A stretch of DNA of 33,456 nt from positions 1 through 33,456 of IMG/VR virus record IMGVR_UViG_3300009082_000957. One strand, written 5' to 3'. The position numbers were made by a program, and so were the translations under genes. Source of the stretch: a virus. Below are positions 20,085 to 33,456 of this stretch, in pieces. The notes under the pieces are model-generated. The model did no database searches and was not told the DNA's origin. It saw only the letters and a program-made list of their open reading frames with translations. Numbering within the stretch: the first letter of the stretch is position 1; the number at the start of each line of letters is the position of its first letter.

Positions 20085-21713
20085 ATGAATAAATTAACAG
20101 ATTATATAGAAAATGATACTTTTTATCCTACGCCTAACAATATTGTTCGTAGATTATTATCAGGAATAGAAATGGATACCATTGAGGATGTCCTAGAGCC
20201 TTCGGCAGGCAGTGGCGATATTGCAATGCACTTTATACCTAAGGATCAATATGATAATATCAGAAAAAATATTAGAATCGATTGTATAGAAATTAATTCT
20301 GATTTGCGAAATGTTTTAAGGGGTAAAGGGCTAAGAGTTATCTATGATGATTTTTTAACTTTCTATACTGCTAAGCGCTATGATTTAATTGTGATGAATC
20401 CACCCTTCAATAAAGGTGTTGATCACTTGCTTCATGCTATTGAATTATGTGTGCATGGTGGTAAAATTAGGTGTATTTTGAATGCTGCTACTATAGATCG
20501 TTGTTTTGATATTGAAAGTACCGGGAAATTAAAAATATTATCAAATACGCTTAAAGAATTAAACGCTAATATTGAATATGTAGATAATGCGTTTAAAGCG
20601 GCTGATAAAAAAACCAATGTACGGATTGCAATCATTTTTATTAATATCCCGGATGATCAAGATGAAATTAAAAGCGAATTGTTTGAACGTTTGCAAAAAG
20701 ATGATAGTTATAATGTAGTTGATAATATTAGCAATGAGAATACCCAGGTAACTTATAGTGATTTTGTTAAAGCTATTGTAAGTCATTATAGGTTTGAAAT
20801 TGAATTAGGTGCAAGCCTGATAAAAGAATTTTTTGCAACTGCTGGTAAAATAAATAAAGAATTCAAGCCGGACAAATATGATGATGCAAAAAGTTTGTTT
20901 ACTTTAAAGATTGGTTATGATGAAGTAGGGGGCGTGAAGTTAGCTATTAATGCACTTGTTAAAGCTATAAGATCAAAATACTGGGCCGCCCTTTTTAATT
21001 CAGAATCATTTGATAAAATTATGACAACCACTATTCGTGATAAGTTTATAGACAGAATAAAAGATTTATGTAATTATGATTTTAATGTTTTCAATATTGA
21101 AGAAATTCAATCAGAAATTAAACGTGATTACTCAAAGACAATAGAAAAAACTATATTGAATTTATTTGATATGTTATCAAGAAAACATAATTGGGATGAT
21201 AAGGATTCGCCTAATGTGCATTATTACAATGGATGGAAAACAAATAAGGCATGGAAAATAAATCATAAATGCATTATCCCTATGATAGGCATGGATACTT
21301 ATAGAAGATGGGAATGTGTAAGGGAGTTATCGGATATTGAAAAAACATTTAATTATTTATCCGGTCAAAGCAACAAGGATTGTACACTTTCTGAAATACT
21401 GGATAATGCAAAGAAAAATTGTCAAACAAAAAAAATACAATGTAAATATTTTAAATTAACATTTTATCTAAAAGGTACTTGCCATATAGAATTTACCGAT
21501 ATGGGATTACTTGATAAATTTAATATTTTTGGAAGTCAACGGGAAAATTGGTTGCCTCCTGGGTTTGGTAAAAAATCGTATAATATGATGAACCATGAAG
21601 AAAAATCTGTTGTTGATAATTTCTGTGGAGAAAATAAATATAAGGAATTTATGAATAAGCAGGATTATTATATTGTTAATGATGTTCAGTTGTTAACTGA
21701 TAATAATTATTAA
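20085..21713 (+). CDS. DNA methyltransferase with DUF4942 domain
   Basis: The 542-residue protein has an N-terminal N6-adenine-type methyltransferase. FYPTPNNIVRRLL is followed by AdoMet motif I (LEPSAGSGDIA, residues 37-47) and catalytic NPPF at 105-108. From about residue 235 the sequence follows DUF4942, a domain found fused or adjacent to phage methyltransferases. It includes HYYNGWKTNKAWKIN, a CKYFKLTFYLKGTCHIEF stretch and NIFGSQRENWLPPGFGKK. Gamma-class order (motif I before NPPF) differs from the enzyme at 10620, so the phage has two unrelated methyltransferases. It likely modifies phage DNA; target site unknown. Confidence 0.88.
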   Translation: MNKLTDYIENDTFYPTPNNIVRRLLSGIEMDTIEDVLEPSAGSGDIAMHFIPKDQYDNIRKNIRIDCIEINSDLRNVLRGKGLRVIYDDFLTFYTAKRYDLIVMNPPFNKGVDHLLHAIELCVHGGKIRCILNAATIDRCFDIESTGKLKILSNTLKELNANIEYVDNAFKAADKKTNVRIAIIFINIPDDQDEIKSELFERLQKDDSYNVVDNISNENTQVTYSDFVKAIVSHYRFEIELGASLIKEFFATAGKINKEFKPDKYDDAKSLFTLKIGYDEVGGVKLAINALVKAIRSKYWAALFNSESFDKIMTTTIRDKFIDRIKDLCNYDFNVFNIEEIQSEIKRDYSKTIEKTILNLFDMLSRKHNWDDKDSPNVHYYNGWKTNKAWKINHKCIIPMIGMDTYRRWECVRELSDIEKTFNYLSGQSNKDCTLSEILDNAKKNCQTKKIQCKYFKLTFYLKGTCHIEFTDMGLLDKFNIFGSQRENWLPPGFGKKSYNMMNHEEKSVVDNFCGENKYKEFMNKQDYYIVNDVQLLTDNNY

Positions 21714-22244: not shown

Positions 22245-22649
22245 ATGAACTTAGGTATAATACTTATTATTATGTCATTCCGTTTTGGCTATATTCCAGA
22301 TATGGGGATTAATTATGGAATCAATATGTATGAACAGCAATCACTTGATTTAGAAAATACTTTTCTTGCAGAATTCGCTATCGATATAATTATATGCCGG
22401 TATATATTTATAAGGGGCTCGTTAAATAATATTTTTCACAGACAATTAGGGCTATTTGCTTTTTCTCCTGACCATGATCAATATACTATAACGGGCGGAT
22501 TGCAATATGAAGGACTTGAAATAGGTTTAACGCATAAATGTTATCATCCAATATTTCCAGCAAAAAAACCTTTTGGCTATAATCTATCACTACTAGAAGG
22601 CGGATATGAAGAAATATATATTAAGGTTACTACAAAATTTGAATTATAG
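22245..22649 (+). CDS. Possible small beta-barrel or membrane-targeted protein
   Basis: This 134-residue protein has a short hydrophobic start (MNLGIILIIMSFRFGYIPDM). After it come alternating amphipathic strands rich in aromatic residues and Gly (ITGGLQYEGLEIGLTHKCY). The pattern resembles small outer-membrane beta-barrels or exported phage proteins, though the leader is too short for a sure signal peptide. It is the last gene of the rightward operon and its stop directly abuts the opposing stop at 22650. Family and function are unknown. Confidence 0.6.
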   Translation: MNLGIILIIMSFRFGYIPDMGINYGINMYEQQSLDLENTFLAEFAIDIIICRYIFIRGSLNNIFHRQLGLFAFSPDHDQYTITGGLQYEGLEIGLTHKCYHPIFPAKKPFGYNLSLLEGGYEEIYIKVTTKFEL

Positions 22650-22892: not shown

Positions 22893-24302
22893 TTAATAAT
22901 ATTTCTTAACCTGGACAGAATAAGAATGGTCTTCATTATCCAATATAGATATACCACCATTGGCTGCCATCAAGACAATACCGCCTGATGCTGTCTGGAT
23001 ATAAAAAGAGGTCGTATTTATCCCCCACAAAGCGAATCCATAAACAACGCTTGCTGTATTTGTATCCCATTGCGCCCAGCCTATTTTTCTCGCAACGGAT
23101 AAATTCATTGTTGCATTTTCATAATAATATAAATCAGTATCAAATATTGTATAATCACAAGTAAGATTATGCCAAATATTAGAGTCATTGTTCTTAGTTG
23201 ATCCGTTAACAAGAGCTGCACCACCCCATGAACCTGTAATCGCTTCATTGTTAACTGCAATACCTGTACTAGTTGCCTTTTTGATGATCATAACAGTGGC
23301 TGTTAGCGATACAATTATTCCTGTTACACCAGAGGCCAAAGTAATCTTTTCACCAATTGCGAAAGCAGCTGTTTCTGTGTCATACGTTATTACTAAGTCA
23401 CCGAGGTGCCTATCTGTCCAGTCATTCGTATTGAGCCCGCCAGTCGAATAATCAAGCCAGCCTCCGGTTATGTGGTACTGTGTACCGTTACTTCTTAAGT
23501 TAACAAACTGTCTTTTTTCAAACAGCCATATATAATAATAGCTATCCTGAATAGTAAAATCATCTATCACCTGTGCTGATTTAAGTGTGACGGCGCTCTT
23601 ATTTGTGGCATAAGAGTCTGTTTTGTCTACCTCTATTTCCATGTAAGGATATGTTACGGCACTTGGTAATGTTATTACAAATCCATTTGCCCCGGCATCG
23701 CAATGTAAAGTGTATTTCCCCTTTATACCTGCTAATGTTTTATTGGCGGTTAAAGATAGCGTTATGGTTGATAAGAGTTCAGAATTCTTGAAATCATAAT
23801 CATAGATGTTGCTGCTATCTGTTATAATACCAGAATACCGGTTGCTGCCTGGATAACAGTTTAAAATTCCACCAAGAGCACTTAAAGAATCCTTCCATCC
23901 AATTCCAATTATCCTTTTAGTTGCTGTCTCATAATACCCACCTTTTTCTCCATCATATGCAGCAGAAAACGCGGCTGGTATACTTTCCACATTATTCTCA
24001 CCTGTAAAATCCAATACTGTTATTGATGGCGTAGTCCCTACGGTAGATAACTCTATCTTAAACCAATTACTATCTGTTATGGTTGCTATTGAAATAGTTT
24101 TAGCAGCCGTATTCTTATAGATACCGCGAGTATTGCCAGGGTCAAGACCAATCCTTCCGGGTGATAACGTTAATACTCCGCCATTATTATATAGCCTTGC
24201 GGATATAAGTCCTAAGTTAATTCTGTTCTGCTCTAATTCGTAAGGGCCCCAGATACCCTGATCAGCTCCATTAATACATTCTCTAATGAATTGTTCAGCC
24301 AT
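22893..24302 (-). CDS. Tail fibre-like protein 2
   Basis: In this 469-residue protein the first 160 residues are paralogous to the gene at 24460. Both share QF-[FI]-R at the N-terminus, the SPGR-[IV]-G block (TLSPGRIGLDPG), a GYY/GFY pair, and IGIGWKD before GGILNC. The middle and C-terminal parts are beta-strand-rich, with many Thr/Ser/Asn, typical of receptor-binding fibre proteins. It ends with SILDNEDHSYSVQVKKYY. It sits distal to the hub and Dit genes where siphophages keep fibres. The start at 24302 uses AAAGGAT inside a decayed homing endonuclease relic. Role as adhesin is inferred. Confidence 0.75.
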   Translation of the reverse strand: MAEQFIRECINGADQGIWGPYELEQNRINLGLISARLYNNGGVLTLSPGRIGLDPGNTRGIYKNTAAKTISIATITDSNWFKIELSTVGTTPSITVLDFTGENNVESIPAAFSAAYDGEKGGYYETATKRIIGIGWKDSLSALGGILNCYPGSNRYSGIITDSSNIYDYDFKNSELLSTITLSLTANKTLAGIKGKYTLHCDAGANGFVITLPSAVTYPYMEIEVDKTDSYATNKSAVTLKSAQVIDDFTIQDSYYYIWLFEKRQFVNLRSNGTQYHITGGWLDYSTGGLNTNDWTDRHLGDLVITYDTETAAFAIGEKITLASGVTGIIVSLTATVMIIKKATSTGIAVNNEAITGSWGGAALVNGSTKNNDSNIWHNLTCDYTIFDTDLYYYENATMNLSVARKIGWAQWDTNTASVVYGFALWGINTTSFYIQTASGGIVLMAANGGISILDNEDHSYSVQVKKYY

Positions 24303-24399
24303 TTACATGCATCCTTTCCCAATATGCAAAAGATTGTATAGTTTGATCTACGTAACATTTCCTGTTTATTTTATTTTCTAGCACATATACACAAGCCAT
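24295..24399 (-). pseudogene. Relic of a GIY-YIG homing endonuclease, internally deleted
   Basis: Minus-strand reading from 24399 gives MACVYVLENKINRKCYVDQT then IQSFAYWERM and a stop at 24295. The first 24 residues match the intact endonuclease at 25305-26315 except for two changes (S13R and G18D). AYW-x-R matches its C-terminal AYWKR. About 300 codons between are missing, with the frame kept. The GIY-YIG-region Gly is now Asp and the catalytic core is gone. The retained 3' end supplies the ribosome site of the following fibre gene. Confidence 0.85.
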
Positions 24400-24400
24400 A

Positions 24401-24451
24401 CTATTTTCGCCTTATTCTATTTATATATTCCATAGTAAAAGATTCTGCCAT
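24401..24451 (-). pseudogene. Short duplicate of the fibre 2 start
   Basis: A 16-residue frame MAESFTMEYINRIRRK ends two bases before the endonuclease relic. Seven of its first twelve residues match the start of fibre 2 (MAEQFIRECING). It has its own GTGAGG ribosome site. It looks like the original fibre start that was separated when the endonuclease inserted; a chance small ORF cannot be excluded. Confidence 0.5.
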
Positions 24452-24459
24452 GTATTGCC

Positions 24460-25308
24460 TCACATTGTTAATTCAACATTTGCTTTTAAAACAGCTGCAT
24501 CAAAACTAGCGGCAGCGTATCCACCTCCAGTCCTTCTTGCCCATAAAAACTTACCAGTTGCAGTATTAGCGGCAGTATACCCGGCTTTTAGTAAATCGGG
24601 ATCAGCTTGATCATCATAACTACCTATATCATATATTACGGTAACCGCATTATTTATTATTTGTGTTGATACGGATTTTATCTTAAATATTTCAGAACCT
24701 AAATAATGAGACGCTGTATATAGATTATTAGCATTCATATTCCATTTAGTACTTGGCGTATATTCAACCCATCTTCTATAACAATCTTGACACCAATCAT
24801 AATACATTTTTGCTTCATTCGTTGGGCTATCAAGATAAACATAGCCCCTGTACCCATTAACCATATTTTGACAATTTATAATTCCGCCTAATACTCCTGT
24901 AGCGTCCTTCCATGCTATGCCTAAAAGCCTTCTTGTTGCTATATGGTAAAATCCTTGTTTGGCTGTAACATAAGAAGCTGTTAAAGTAGCAGGGAGAAGA
25001 GCCGGGTCATTGTCTGCTAAAGCTGTAGCTGATAATGTAACAGCTGTACCAGATACTGTCATTTCTATTTTATACCAAAGACTGTTCGCGCCAGTTAATG
25101 TTATAGCCGTTACTGTATCAATTATAGATACCCCCTCATTAGTACCATCATTTATACCAACACGGCCCGGAGACAAGGTTACTGTTCCTGCATTATCATA
25201 AAGATAACTTGTATATTCACCAACGCTGTTTTTTATTTGAGCAAGCAAATAAGACGCCCAAACAGAATTATCCCCCCCAGCAATAGGATTGCGGAAAAAT
25301 TGGCTCAT
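24460..25308 (-). CDS. Tail fibre-like protein 1
   Basis: This 282-residue protein starts at 25308 (MSQFFRNPIAGGDNSVWASY). AGGAGG lies inside the last codons of the upstream endonuclease, and the start overlaps its stop by ATGA. Residues 1-160 are paralogous to fibre 2, sharing VTLSPGRVGIN, QGFYHIATRRLLGIAWKD and LGGIINCQN. The C-terminal part is different, with WCQDCYRRWVEY, and lacks the long beta-rich tail of fibre 2. A shared N-terminal attachment domain with divergent C-terminal receptor-binding parts is usual for fibre paralogues. Function is inferred from place and paralogy. Confidence 0.75.
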   Translation of the reverse strand: MSQFFRNPIAGGDNSVWASYLLAQIKNSVGEYTSYLYDNAGTVTLSPGRVGINDGTNEGVSIIDTVTAITLTGANSLWYKIEMTVSGTAVTLSATALADNDPALLPATLTASYVTAKQGFYHIATRRLLGIAWKDATGVLGGIINCQNMVNGYRGYVYLDSPTNEAKMYYDWCQDCYRRWVEYTPSTKWNMNANNLYTASHYLGSEIFKIKSVSTQIINNAVTVIYDIGSYDDQADPDLLKAGYTAANTATGKFLWARRTGGGYAAASFDAAVLKANVELTM

Positions 25309-26315
25309 AGACCTTTCCTCCTTTTCCAATAAGCTTTCGTTGCTTCACTCAATTTGTTTCTTGTTATATTTGATATACATGGTTTATTCTTAGCCGCTAT
25401 ACTCATTTTTAATCTACTTTCTTCTGATATTATTTTATTTTTATTTGATTCTGATATTTTTTTTCTTGTTTCTTCAGAATGGGAATATCCCTTCATTTTT
25501 TCTAACCTTTTTAAGATAGATTCTTTTGAAAGTTTTCTGCCAGTGGCAGCTTTCCCAATATTGATTTTTGCTTCTTCGGAATGTTTATATCCCTTTTTTG
25601 AATTTTTTAGTTTTTCTCTTATATCATCTCTTTTAGCAGGATTATTTTCTCCTGCCATTCTTTCTCTTAATCTCTCTTTAAATTCTATATTGTTATGCAT
25701 TTTTTTAAAATTATCACTTATTCTTTTTCGTTCTTCTAATGTATATTCTCTTTTTTTATTTGCTAATAATATTTTATTTTGTATTTCTTCTTCAGTCATT
25801 TTTAAATAATCTCCATAATATGCCCAAACCAATCTATTTCCATTTTTACCTTTCCCGGCACTATTCCTTTTCCCTTTACAAACAGCAGGTATTGTTTTTC
25901 TTAATCTATCGCCGAGAACCATTCCGCAATCATAAATCGTTTTTGTATTCAGGCATACAATTTTTTTTGCAGCATTTGATTGTCCTAAAGTTTTTCTCAT
26001 TTTGGCAGCACCCATTTTTTGCTTTACTATATCAGAAACTTTTTTATTTTTATTCCCACCAGTTTCAAGATTATATCCATTAGGGTATAATGAGTTTATT
26101 CTTTTAATCATTTCTATTTCATAATAATCTAATAAATTCTCTGGCAAATAATAAATATATTGATTAAAATTATACTGGCCATATTTTTTTAAAGCTCTGC
26201 TTATAAGCATATCGCTCTCCATATGTCTTTTAAATCTGCGTTTAAAAGATTGTATAGTCTGTCCAACATAACATTTACTATTTATTTTATTTTCTAATAC
26301 ATAAACACATGCCAT
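25305..26315 (-). CDS. GIY-YIG homing endonuclease with NUMOD-type repeats
   Basis: The 336-residue protein begins with the GIY-YIG nuclease fold: VYVLENKINSKCYVGQT carries the paired strands, with arginines in FKRRFKRH and a closing YNLETGG. From about residue 200 come repeated helix-rich modules (HSEEAKINIGKAATGRKLSK; HSEETRKKISESNK), like the NUMOD3 DNA-binding repeats of phage homing endonucleases. These are selfish genes that cut allelic sites to spread. It lies between the hub and fibre 1 genes, and its last codons form the ribosome site and the start overlap of fibre 1. Intact by reading; no intron is evident. Confidence 0.92.
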   Translation of the reverse strand: MACVYVLENKINSKCYVGQTIQSFKRRFKRHMESDMLISRALKKYGQYNFNQYIYYLPENLLDYYEIEMIKRINSLYPNGYNLETGGNKNKKVSDIVKQKMGAAKMRKTLGQSNAAKKIVCLNTKTIYDCGMVLGDRLRKTIPAVCKGKRNSAGKGKNGNRLVWAYYGDYLKMTEEEIQNKILLANKKREYTLEERKRISDNFKKMHNNIEFKERLRERMAGENNPAKRDDIREKLKNSKKGYKHSEEAKINIGKAATGRKLSKESILKRLEKMKGYSHSEETRKKISESNKNKIISEESRLKMSIAAKNKPCISNITRNKLSEATKAYWKRRKGL

Positions 26316-26331
26316 AAATCTTTATTTTGCC

Positions 26332-27558
26332 TCACAATGATAAACTTGTTTTTAAGTCTACCAATTCTTTATTTATTTTAATTATGCTTGCATCAAGACT
26401 TGCAGGCAAATTCCCTATTTCTATCTGCCTTAATGCTTGATCGGCATTTATAGAATATTTAATTTGCTTAACTTCCATAGTATCGTCACTGTCATAACCG
26501 GTATATGATTCACCGCCAAAAAGCCCACTACCAAATAATCCGTCACCAAATAAATCTACACTTTGAGTACTTGCTGTGGGCGGGATATTAGATATAATTC
26601 TTACATTTCCATCAGCAAATAAAGGCAAAGGGTCAATATTGTTAATTCTCCATTGTATTGTTGCCCGTTTATTACTTATTTCCTGCGCTCTCATTCGTCC
26701 AGCGGCCCACAAAGGGATTGTTACTGCATCAATATCTGGCGCAGTTATTTTTTCTTCAAATATATCATTCCCAATAACCCCCGTATTTATTGTAGTAATA
26801 TAATTCCCATCTTTATCAAGCACATAATAAATAGTTTTTGGCTCATTATCTTCTGTCGGTTCATAACCAGGTATCCCATAGCGTCCTTTCTTGCCAACAA
26901 TTAGCGTGCATTTTAAATCTTGTGAACGCGGTCTGAAAAAAAACTCGCCTTCTTGATCAACACCAAATACATAATAATTACCATCGCTTGCTGCGATTTC
27001 TTTTAATGTGTCCAGTACTTCAATCATCTGTGTATAATTTATATTTAAATCTATTGTTATACTAGGGATGTCTATTTTAGCTAAGTTCTTAACGACAGGA
27101 GTTTTTGCAGTTATAATTGAATCCAACAGGTCGATAATGATATCTTCTATGCTCTGTGCTGCATATGTTTGTGATTCTGCACTAATTCTATGTAAATAGT
27201 CATTGAACCCATAACCGGAGTAATTATATTCTTGTTTTGTGCTTCCTTCAATAGGCACCTCTCTAATTACTCCAGTAAAAAAATAATCAATACTATTAAA
27301 CAACTTGATTTTTATCTGGTCTTTTTTCTCTAAGTCCTGGAAACTGGCAAAAAATAAAATGAAATCTCTGCACCCGTTTTCATCATGGGAAAATTCGCAT
27401 CCTATAAATCCGCCCACTCCAGACTGAAATGTACCCTTCCTTGTCCCAAGTGAATCATAGGCTTCAACGATAACAGCTGCCGCTGTAGGCACATATGGAG
27501 TATCATAACCGCCATATACCCCTTCACTATATTTTCTTGATCCATAGTTATATGGCAT
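26332..27558 (-). CDS. Tail hub/baseplate protein
   Basis: This 408-residue protein follows Dit and shares one base with its stop (TAATG). The sequence has strand-rich N-terminal parts, TGVIREVPIEGSTKQEYNYS and a region of gp27-like hub proteins (DTLKEIAASDGNYYVFGVDQ, FFFRPRS). It then has a Gly/Phe-rich turn segment (LFGDGLFGSGLFGGES) before a C-terminal helix (ASIIKINKELVDLKTSLSL). Its order after Dit and before the fibres fits the siphophage tail hub that closes the tube and carries fibres. No lysozyme or peptidase motif is visible. Confidence 0.7.
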   Translation of the reverse strand: MPYNYGSRKYSEGVYGGYDTPYVPTAAAVIVEAYDSLGTRKGTFQSGVGGFIGCEFSHDENGCRDFILFFASFQDLEKKDQIKIKLFNSIDYFFTGVIREVPIEGSTKQEYNYSGYGFNDYLHRISAESQTYAAQSIEDIIIDLLDSIITAKTPVVKNLAKIDIPSITIDLNINYTQMIEVLDTLKEIAASDGNYYVFGVDQEGEFFFRPRSQDLKCTLIVGKKGRYGIPGYEPTEDNEPKTIYYVLDKDGNYITTINTGVIGNDIFEEKITAPDIDAVTIPLWAAGRMRAQEISNKRATIQWRINNIDPLPLFADGNVRIISNIPPTASTQSVDLFGDGLFGSGLFGGESYTGYDSDDTMEVKQIKYSINADQALRQIEIGNLPASLDASIIKINKELVDLKTSLSL

Positions 27559-32953: not shown

Positions 32954-33456
32954 CCGCCTGTTTCCTTTTTGAAAGTCTCGGCATATAATTGCATAACTGT
33001 TTCTCTGTCAGCTACTAAATGCTTTTCTAAATATTTGTTACCAACATTTCCTGCTTTTTTTGAAGCTGGGCCAGGATTCCATTCTGTCTCATGTAATTTA
33101 GTAGCATATGAAGTATTGAATCCAATAGTTATCGTATCTGGTTTTTCAGATATCCCGCCTATATTAGCACCTTCTCCTGTCTTTTCTTTTACAGGATATA
33201 AATTATTTCCACCGACAAATTCTCTGCCCACATGGACACTGCCAGCTGCCCTAAGATTTCCCCACTTTATAGGTGGCGTTACTGTTTCTTTACTTGAGCC
33301 ATTAACAACAAAATTTATAAATTGTAACCCGCAAACAGTCTTTGCTTTTTTATCTGCACCAATGGTAGTTAATTGTGATATACCAGCAGTCTTGAAATAT
33401 CGCTTCATTCCTTCCATCAATGTGTCTGTAACTGTCATTTGTAAAGCACTAGGCAT
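32950..33456 (-). CDS. Neck protein, HK97 gp10-like (start at window edge)
   Basis: The 168-residue frame has features of the gp10/neck family. SYATKLHETEWNPGP has the Tyr-Ala-x-x-x-His-Glu pattern, followed by KYLEKHLVADRETVMQLYAE, a C-terminal helix. A stretch VTPPIKWGNLRAAGSVHVG matches the earlier part of the fold. The proteins form the ring between head and tail tube. An ATG coincides with the last bases of the window, so the true start and ribosome site cannot be checked. Confidence 0.65.
   Translation of the reverse strand: MPSALQMTVTDTLMEGMKRYFKTAGISQLTTIGADKKAKTVCGLQFINFVVNGSSKETVTPPIKWGNLRAAGSVHVGREFVGGNNLYPVKEKTGEGANIGGISEKPDTITIGFNTSYATKLHETEWNPGPASKKAGNVGNKYLEKHLVADRETVMQLYAETFKKETGG

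Follow-up and report, generated by a model that had tools for sequence, protein, structure and literature searches.

The window analysed here is the whole 33,456-nt record of an uncultured virus (IMGVR_UViG_3300009082_000957), a siphovirus-like phage. Its tail-fibre locus lies on the minus strand and holds, in this order, a Tal gene, a GIY-YIG endonuclease gene, a first fibre gene, a short stretch at 24295-24459 and a second fibre gene. The features are as follows:

26332-27558, minus strand: Tal-like tail protein, preceding site 1; so named because it follows the tape measure and Dit genes
25305-26315, minus strand: intact, predicted free-standing GIY-YIG homing endonuclease of 336 aa (site 1); assigned by Pfam and PHROG, with an orthologue at site 1 in the related phage L019
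24460-25308, minus strand: fibre 1, putative tail-fibre-like protein of 282 aa, with its ATG at 25308; so named for its position, its paralogy with fibre 2 and the orthologues that all seven relatives have
24401-24451, minus strand: small 16-codon ORF, MAESFTMEYINRIRRK, following the fibre-1 stop and a GAGG; its first 11 codons (24419-24451) resemble a fibre-2 start and are read as a relic of it
24295-24399, minus strand: relic endonuclease ORF of 34 codons (site 2), of which 24328-24399 matches endonuclease codons 1-24
24312-24327, minus strand: remnant of the endonuclease 3′ end (AYW-x-R), matching the end of the intact gene at 14/16 nt and holding the AAAGGA Shine-Dalgarno of fibre 2
22893-24302, minus strand: fibre 2, putative tail-fibre-like protein of 469 aa, whose ATG overlaps the end of the relic ORF; named from paralogy and from the second fibres of relatives at the same place

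The Tal-like protein has no Pfam or PHROG match, and its orthologues, 43-56% identical, occupy the same place in seven related phages. The two fibres of the window likewise match no Pfam or PHROG family. We call them putative fibres from their position, their paralogy and the similarity of single relatives' fibres, one relative's second fibre among them, to tail-collar or tail-fibre families. That the two are paralogues, as a sequence-only reading of this DNA had proposed, is borne out by their N-terminal domains, which are 37% identical over 159 residues (E 1e-33). Elsewhere in the window, 20085-21713 encodes a protein with an N-terminal methyltransferase-like region and a DUF4942 domain (Pfam E 4.7e-31).

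The intact endonuclease carries a GIY-YIG domain (PF01541, residues 2-82, 29.8 bits against a cut-off of 22.6, E 7.5e-7) and a NUMOD3 motif (PF07460, residues 276-305, 29.4 bits against a cut-off of 20.4, E 7.9e-7), and it matches PHROG homing endonuclease families (E 8.5e-21). Its score against TIGR01453, 55.1 bits, falls under the cut-off of 56.05. The alignment with the I-TevI catalytic domain (1mk0) is weak (E 0.008), with Tyr5, Tyr16, Gly18, Arg27 and Asn82 in register. A group I intron origin was rejected: apart from one chance match, Rfam gave no match in the window at the gathering score or around the locus at E up to 5. Site 1 is occupied in the window and in L019 and free of the endonuclease in L018, L017, L020, L022, L023 and L024. 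Family membership and this pattern of presence and absence suggest that the gene spreads by homing; its product is presumably active.

The intact gene is closely knit to the fibre that follows. The GGAGG Shine-Dalgarno of fibre 1 lies inside the last codons of the endonuclease, and the endonuclease stop overlaps the fibre-1 start (ATGA). In both the window and L019 this GGAGG in the endonuclease 3′ end is the only good Shine-Dalgarno of fibre 1, so that expression of the fibre would be expected to drop or cease if the endonuclease were cleanly lost.

Remnants of genes ahead of fibre 2

The sequence-only reading held that the first 24 residues of the 34-codon ORF match the intact endonuclease, that its AYW-x-R matches the C-terminus of the same protein and that the segment as a whole is a deleted relic of the same endonuclease family. 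All three statements held. Aligned with the intact region, the relic segment shows similarity well above chance: its 5′ end is identical at 62/73 nt (85%, E 5e-20) and at 22/24 residues (92%). Apart from the intact gene and this relic, a search of the window found no further copy of the endonuclease.

Ten of the 24 relic codons differ from those of the intact gene, eight of them synonymously. At the nucleotide level 8/11 differences are synonymous, compared to 19-25% expected from random change (p about 0.001 without selection). This synonymous excess suggests that most of the divergence between the endonuclease copies arose while both were functional. In the relic, glycine 18 of the conserved catalytic motif is replaced by Asp, and after codon 24 the frame jumps to AYW-x-R. 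The C-terminal match (GCATATTGGGAAAGGA versus GCTTATTGGAAAAGGA) covers 14/16 nt in the same frame and stands 25 and 26 nt ahead of the ATG of the following fibre; a score this high was reached by 0 of 141 other upstream regions and by 0.04% of shuffles. This 16-nt match is short, yet above chance. It lies where the relic holds AAAGGA, 10-15 nt before the fibre-2 ATG. As the rest of the enzyme is missing, the relic can have no activity. A second contig of the same phage stops short of the relic, which is thus read from one assembly.

A further remnant, overlooked in the sequence-only reading, lies between fibre 1 and the relic endonuclease. The sequence from the fibre-1 stop to the 16-codon ORF is TGAGGCAATAC-ATG, and the first 11 codons of this ORF (MAESFTMEYIN, 24419-24451), which have their own Shine-Dalgarno, resemble the present fibre-2 start (MAEQFIRECIN) at 7/11 residues and 23/33 nt. 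Compared with 1214 other ATG-anchored 33-mers in the window, this is the best match (next 20/33). Scored with a profile built from the fibre-2 starts of the relatives, it comes second in the window, behind the true fibre-2 start (p 1.5e-4, random peptides). It begins 8 nt past the fibre-1 stop, and fibre 2 begins 0, 9, 12 and 9 nt past fibre 1 in four insert-free relatives. The simplest reading is that 24419-24451 is the old fibre-2 start and that the endonuclease inserted past about codon 11. The present fibre-2 start either came along with the endonuclease or arose by duplication, the stranded copy then drifting.

The bases before both endonuclease copies had also been described as matching. 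The match itself is real, at 15/17 nt (26327-26343 versus 24455-24471), but it marks no shared unit. Ahead of TGA it covers the final codons of Tal (L-S-L) in one case and of fibre 1 (L-T-M) in the other; GGCAA comes next, and GAGG is the Shine-Dalgarno of the following gene. Relatives without the endonuclease retain (V/I)-S-L-G at the end of Tal and have the Shine-Dalgarno of fibre 1 after it, so that the letters of the repeat stem from the neighbouring genes. We therefore rejected the 17-nt repeat as part of a mobile unit; two unrelated genes contribute their inherited 3′ ends to it, and a Shine-Dalgarno makes up the rest. As a chance match it remains a good one: 36,585 stop-context pairs contain nine non-identical pairs at 15/17 or better.

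Related phages and the age of the fibre pair

Relatives were reached stepwise, from a profile of the two fibre anchor domains to L014, from a Tal alignment to L017 and from an alignment of three Tal proteins to L019-L024. L021 includes L019, and the L018 record includes L014, which leaves seven distinct phages. Public phage records held no close relatives of the window phage: 50,697 phage records contained no relatives of Tal and both fibres. Genome-contig scans with the fibre and Tal alignments gave no relatives either. Single-sequence scans for close relatives, using the endonuclease, Tal and the fibres, returned only one contig (L003-L006), which matches the window at 100% identity over 8603 nt and is therefore uninformative on alleles. 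This contig (IMGVR_UViG_3300027726_000132, 10.3 kb) extends the window by 1746 nt beyond position 33456 (L004:1-1746), and an ORF at 737-1396 of the extension looks, by eye, like a small methyltransferase.

The order Tal, fibre 1, fibre 2 is kept in all seven related phages. Six of them (L014/L018, L017, L020, L022, L023 and L024) have both fibres and no endonuclease at either junction, and in L018, L017, L020 and L022 neither junction holds any insert; where no insert is present, fibre 2 follows fibre 1 at 0-23 nt. In the seventh, L019, Tal and fibre 1 are separated by a GIY-YIG/NUMOD3 gene of 237 aa, which shares 57% identity with the window gene over residues 1-113, and nothing stands before fibre 2. 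None of the seven carries an endonuclease before fibre 2. Comparison of the fibre loci thus yielded alleles with none (6/7) and with one endonuclease (L019), while an allele with two occurs in no relative. We found no allele of the window phage itself with an intact or an empty site 2.

Other inserts occur at both junctions. In L024 a 77-codon ORF (L024:9232-9465) sits between Tal and fibre 1, so that site 1 also accepts inserts other than endonucleases. The inserts between the fibres of L023 and L024 were considered as endonucleases and rejected; each is an unrelated antisense gene with a signal-peptide-like start (L023:9003-9440 and L024:10310-10771, both minus strand), the two being 40% identical to each other. 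A weak relative of this gene (24% identity, pairwise E 3e-8) lies in the window at 22245-22649 on the plus strand, antisense and just past fibre 2. Judged from sequence, this antisense gene beside the fibres may be of the superinfection-exclusion type. Based on the layouts of the relatives, both junctions accept insertions, and the fibre pair is older than the endonuclease and independent of it.

The divergence of the two pairs differs widely. The two window fibres share 40% of amino acids and 51% of nucleotides in their anchor domains, compared to 92% and 85% for the endonuclease pieces. We built a tree of 16 anchor domains from eight phages, which replaced an unresolved six-sequence tree. 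The best tree places every fibre 1 on one side and every fibre 2 on the other with moderate support (64/87), and none of 500 label shuffles was as clustered as this split. Constraining the two window fibres together costs 15.7 log units, which is formally not rejected (p-AU 0.124).

For the endonucleases, pairwise comparison over 72 nt gave 61 identities between relic and intact gene, 59 between intact gene and the L019 gene, and 52 between relic and the L019 gene. The distance between the two copies of the window is thus similar to that between the window and L019 genes (61/72 versus 59/72). These 72 nt are all that is left for dating the copies, too few to tell seeding of site 2 from site 1 from a source in another phage.

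Origin of the two endonuclease copies

The explanation that we favour, and consider probable, is that one family of free-standing endonucleases inserted at both fibre starts and that the copy at site 2 was later deleted in frame. Two homing events had been offered as the alternative in the sequence-only reading, and they fit the data best. Members of the GIY-YIG/NUMOD3 family would have entered an older tandem pair, Tal - fibre 1 - fibre 2, twice. At site 1 the endonuclease would have come to lie between the Tal end and the fibre-1 start codon, supplying the Shine-Dalgarno of fibre 1 from its own last codons. At site 2, where fibre 1 would previously have led straight into ATGGCAGAATCT... as full fibre 2, it would have entered past about codon 11 of this older start, leaving 24419-24451 behind as the relic; a complete fibre-2 start that has its own Shine-Dalgarno stands downstream. 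A later in-frame deletion of ~0.9 kb would have removed codons 25 to about 326 of the site-2 copy. The first 24 codons were presumably spared together with the terminal codons, the latter probably retained for the ribosome-binding site that keeps fibre 2 translatable.

The sequence-only reading had preferred duplication of a whole endonuclease-plus-fibre unit, followed by loss of most of the second endonuclease, and had made the endonuclease the cause of the fibre copying; the change of host range that it had drawn from this would be speculative. The fibres are indeed paralogous, a segment of the same endonuclease gene stands before each, and there is a precedent that makes the idea reasonable: SegB can drive copying of neighbouring genes, and in the segmental amplification seen in T6 and T4 the repeated unit contains a truncated endonuclease (PMC13096335). 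SegB is likewise a free-standing GIY-YIG enzyme; its repeats are recent, whereas the fibre pair of the window is old and exists without the endonuclease. Here the relatives argue against the duplication. Six of seven have tandem fibres and no endonuclease, which also speaks against the endonuclease as the cause of the second fibre, and the fibre copies are far more diverged than the endonuclease copies, when joint copying would give both pairs the same age. Mainly for these two reasons we reject unit duplication as highly unlikely. In addition, the split between fibre 1 and fibre 2 spans all phages, and a leftover fibre start ahead of the site-2 relic is not expected from copying of a unit. 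The locus is best read as an ordinary scar of a selfish gene, not as a copied gene-plus-fibre unit.

A closer competitor keeps both endonuclease copies within one lineage: off-target cutting and repair would have carried the gene from site 1 to site 2, or the other way round, and the new copy would then have decayed. Over the 72 nt the relic is closer to the intact gene of the window (61) than to that of L019 (52), and when L019 serves as outgroup, each of the seven codon changes that can be polarised maps to the relic. Yet the intact gene is nearly as close to the L019 gene (59) as to the relic, most relic changes are synonymous, which would make the split old for a local copy, and with three sequences the root is not placeable. 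We regard such local copying as a real possibility, though not the likelier course. It is also conceivable that 24295-24451, whatever its origin, works as a coupling chain, its two short ORFs (16 and 34 codons) handing ribosomes on from fibre 1 to fibre 2. The frames of both mini-ORFs are open, the second begins one nt past the stop of the first and overlaps the fibre-2 start with its end, and each has a Shine-Dalgarno-like sequence. However, the relatives have no such chain, uninterrupted ones beginning fibre 2 directly 0-23 nt past fibre 1, and a recent deletion accounts equally well for the open frames; a coupling role is unlikely.

Insertion followed by internal deletion has ample parallels. 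Phages are well known to carry free-standing GIY-YIG endonucleases and endonuclease relics left by deletion (PMC2988022, PMC2993671, PMC12724721). The Seg endonucleases of T4-like phages are likewise free-standing GIY-YIG enzymes between conserved genes, oriented with the operon and present or absent among relatives. The T4 seg genes contain embedded promoters of essential genes, which have been proposed to favour their retention (PMC2988022). SegG, for example, holds promoters of gene 32 (PMC2988022), and here too a signal for the downstream gene lies inside the endonuclease, but it is a ribosome-binding site. Unlike the Seg genes, the endonuclease described here sits between tail genes of an uncultured siphovirus-like phage. 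I-TevIII of T4 is inactive through a large deletion (PMC2988022), and in 89 Skunavirus genomes 56/268 HNH genes show signs of partial deletion (PMC12724721). These are likewise defunct relics of internal deletion; they are HNH enzymes, one of them intron-encoded, whereas the window relic is of the GIY-YIG type, keeps both gene ends and has an intact family member 0.9 kb away.

Read as two insertions and a deletion, the locus would neatly illustrate the whole course of a homing endonuclease in phages: it enters at gene starts, pushes the old start aside and finally decays to a stub, which is held in place by a signal that the neighbouring gene needs. A repeated endonuclease beside repeated fibres need not mean that the endonuclease copied the fibres. 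A bolder and quite improbable extension is that the family is specialised on the starts of receptor-binding fibres, its own 3′ end and flank bringing a replacement ribosome-binding site and fibre 5′ end, such that each homing event would swap the fibre allele and could not be cleanly reversed. If such co-conversion of fibre alleles took place, selfish endonucleases would be linked to the exchange of tail fibres.
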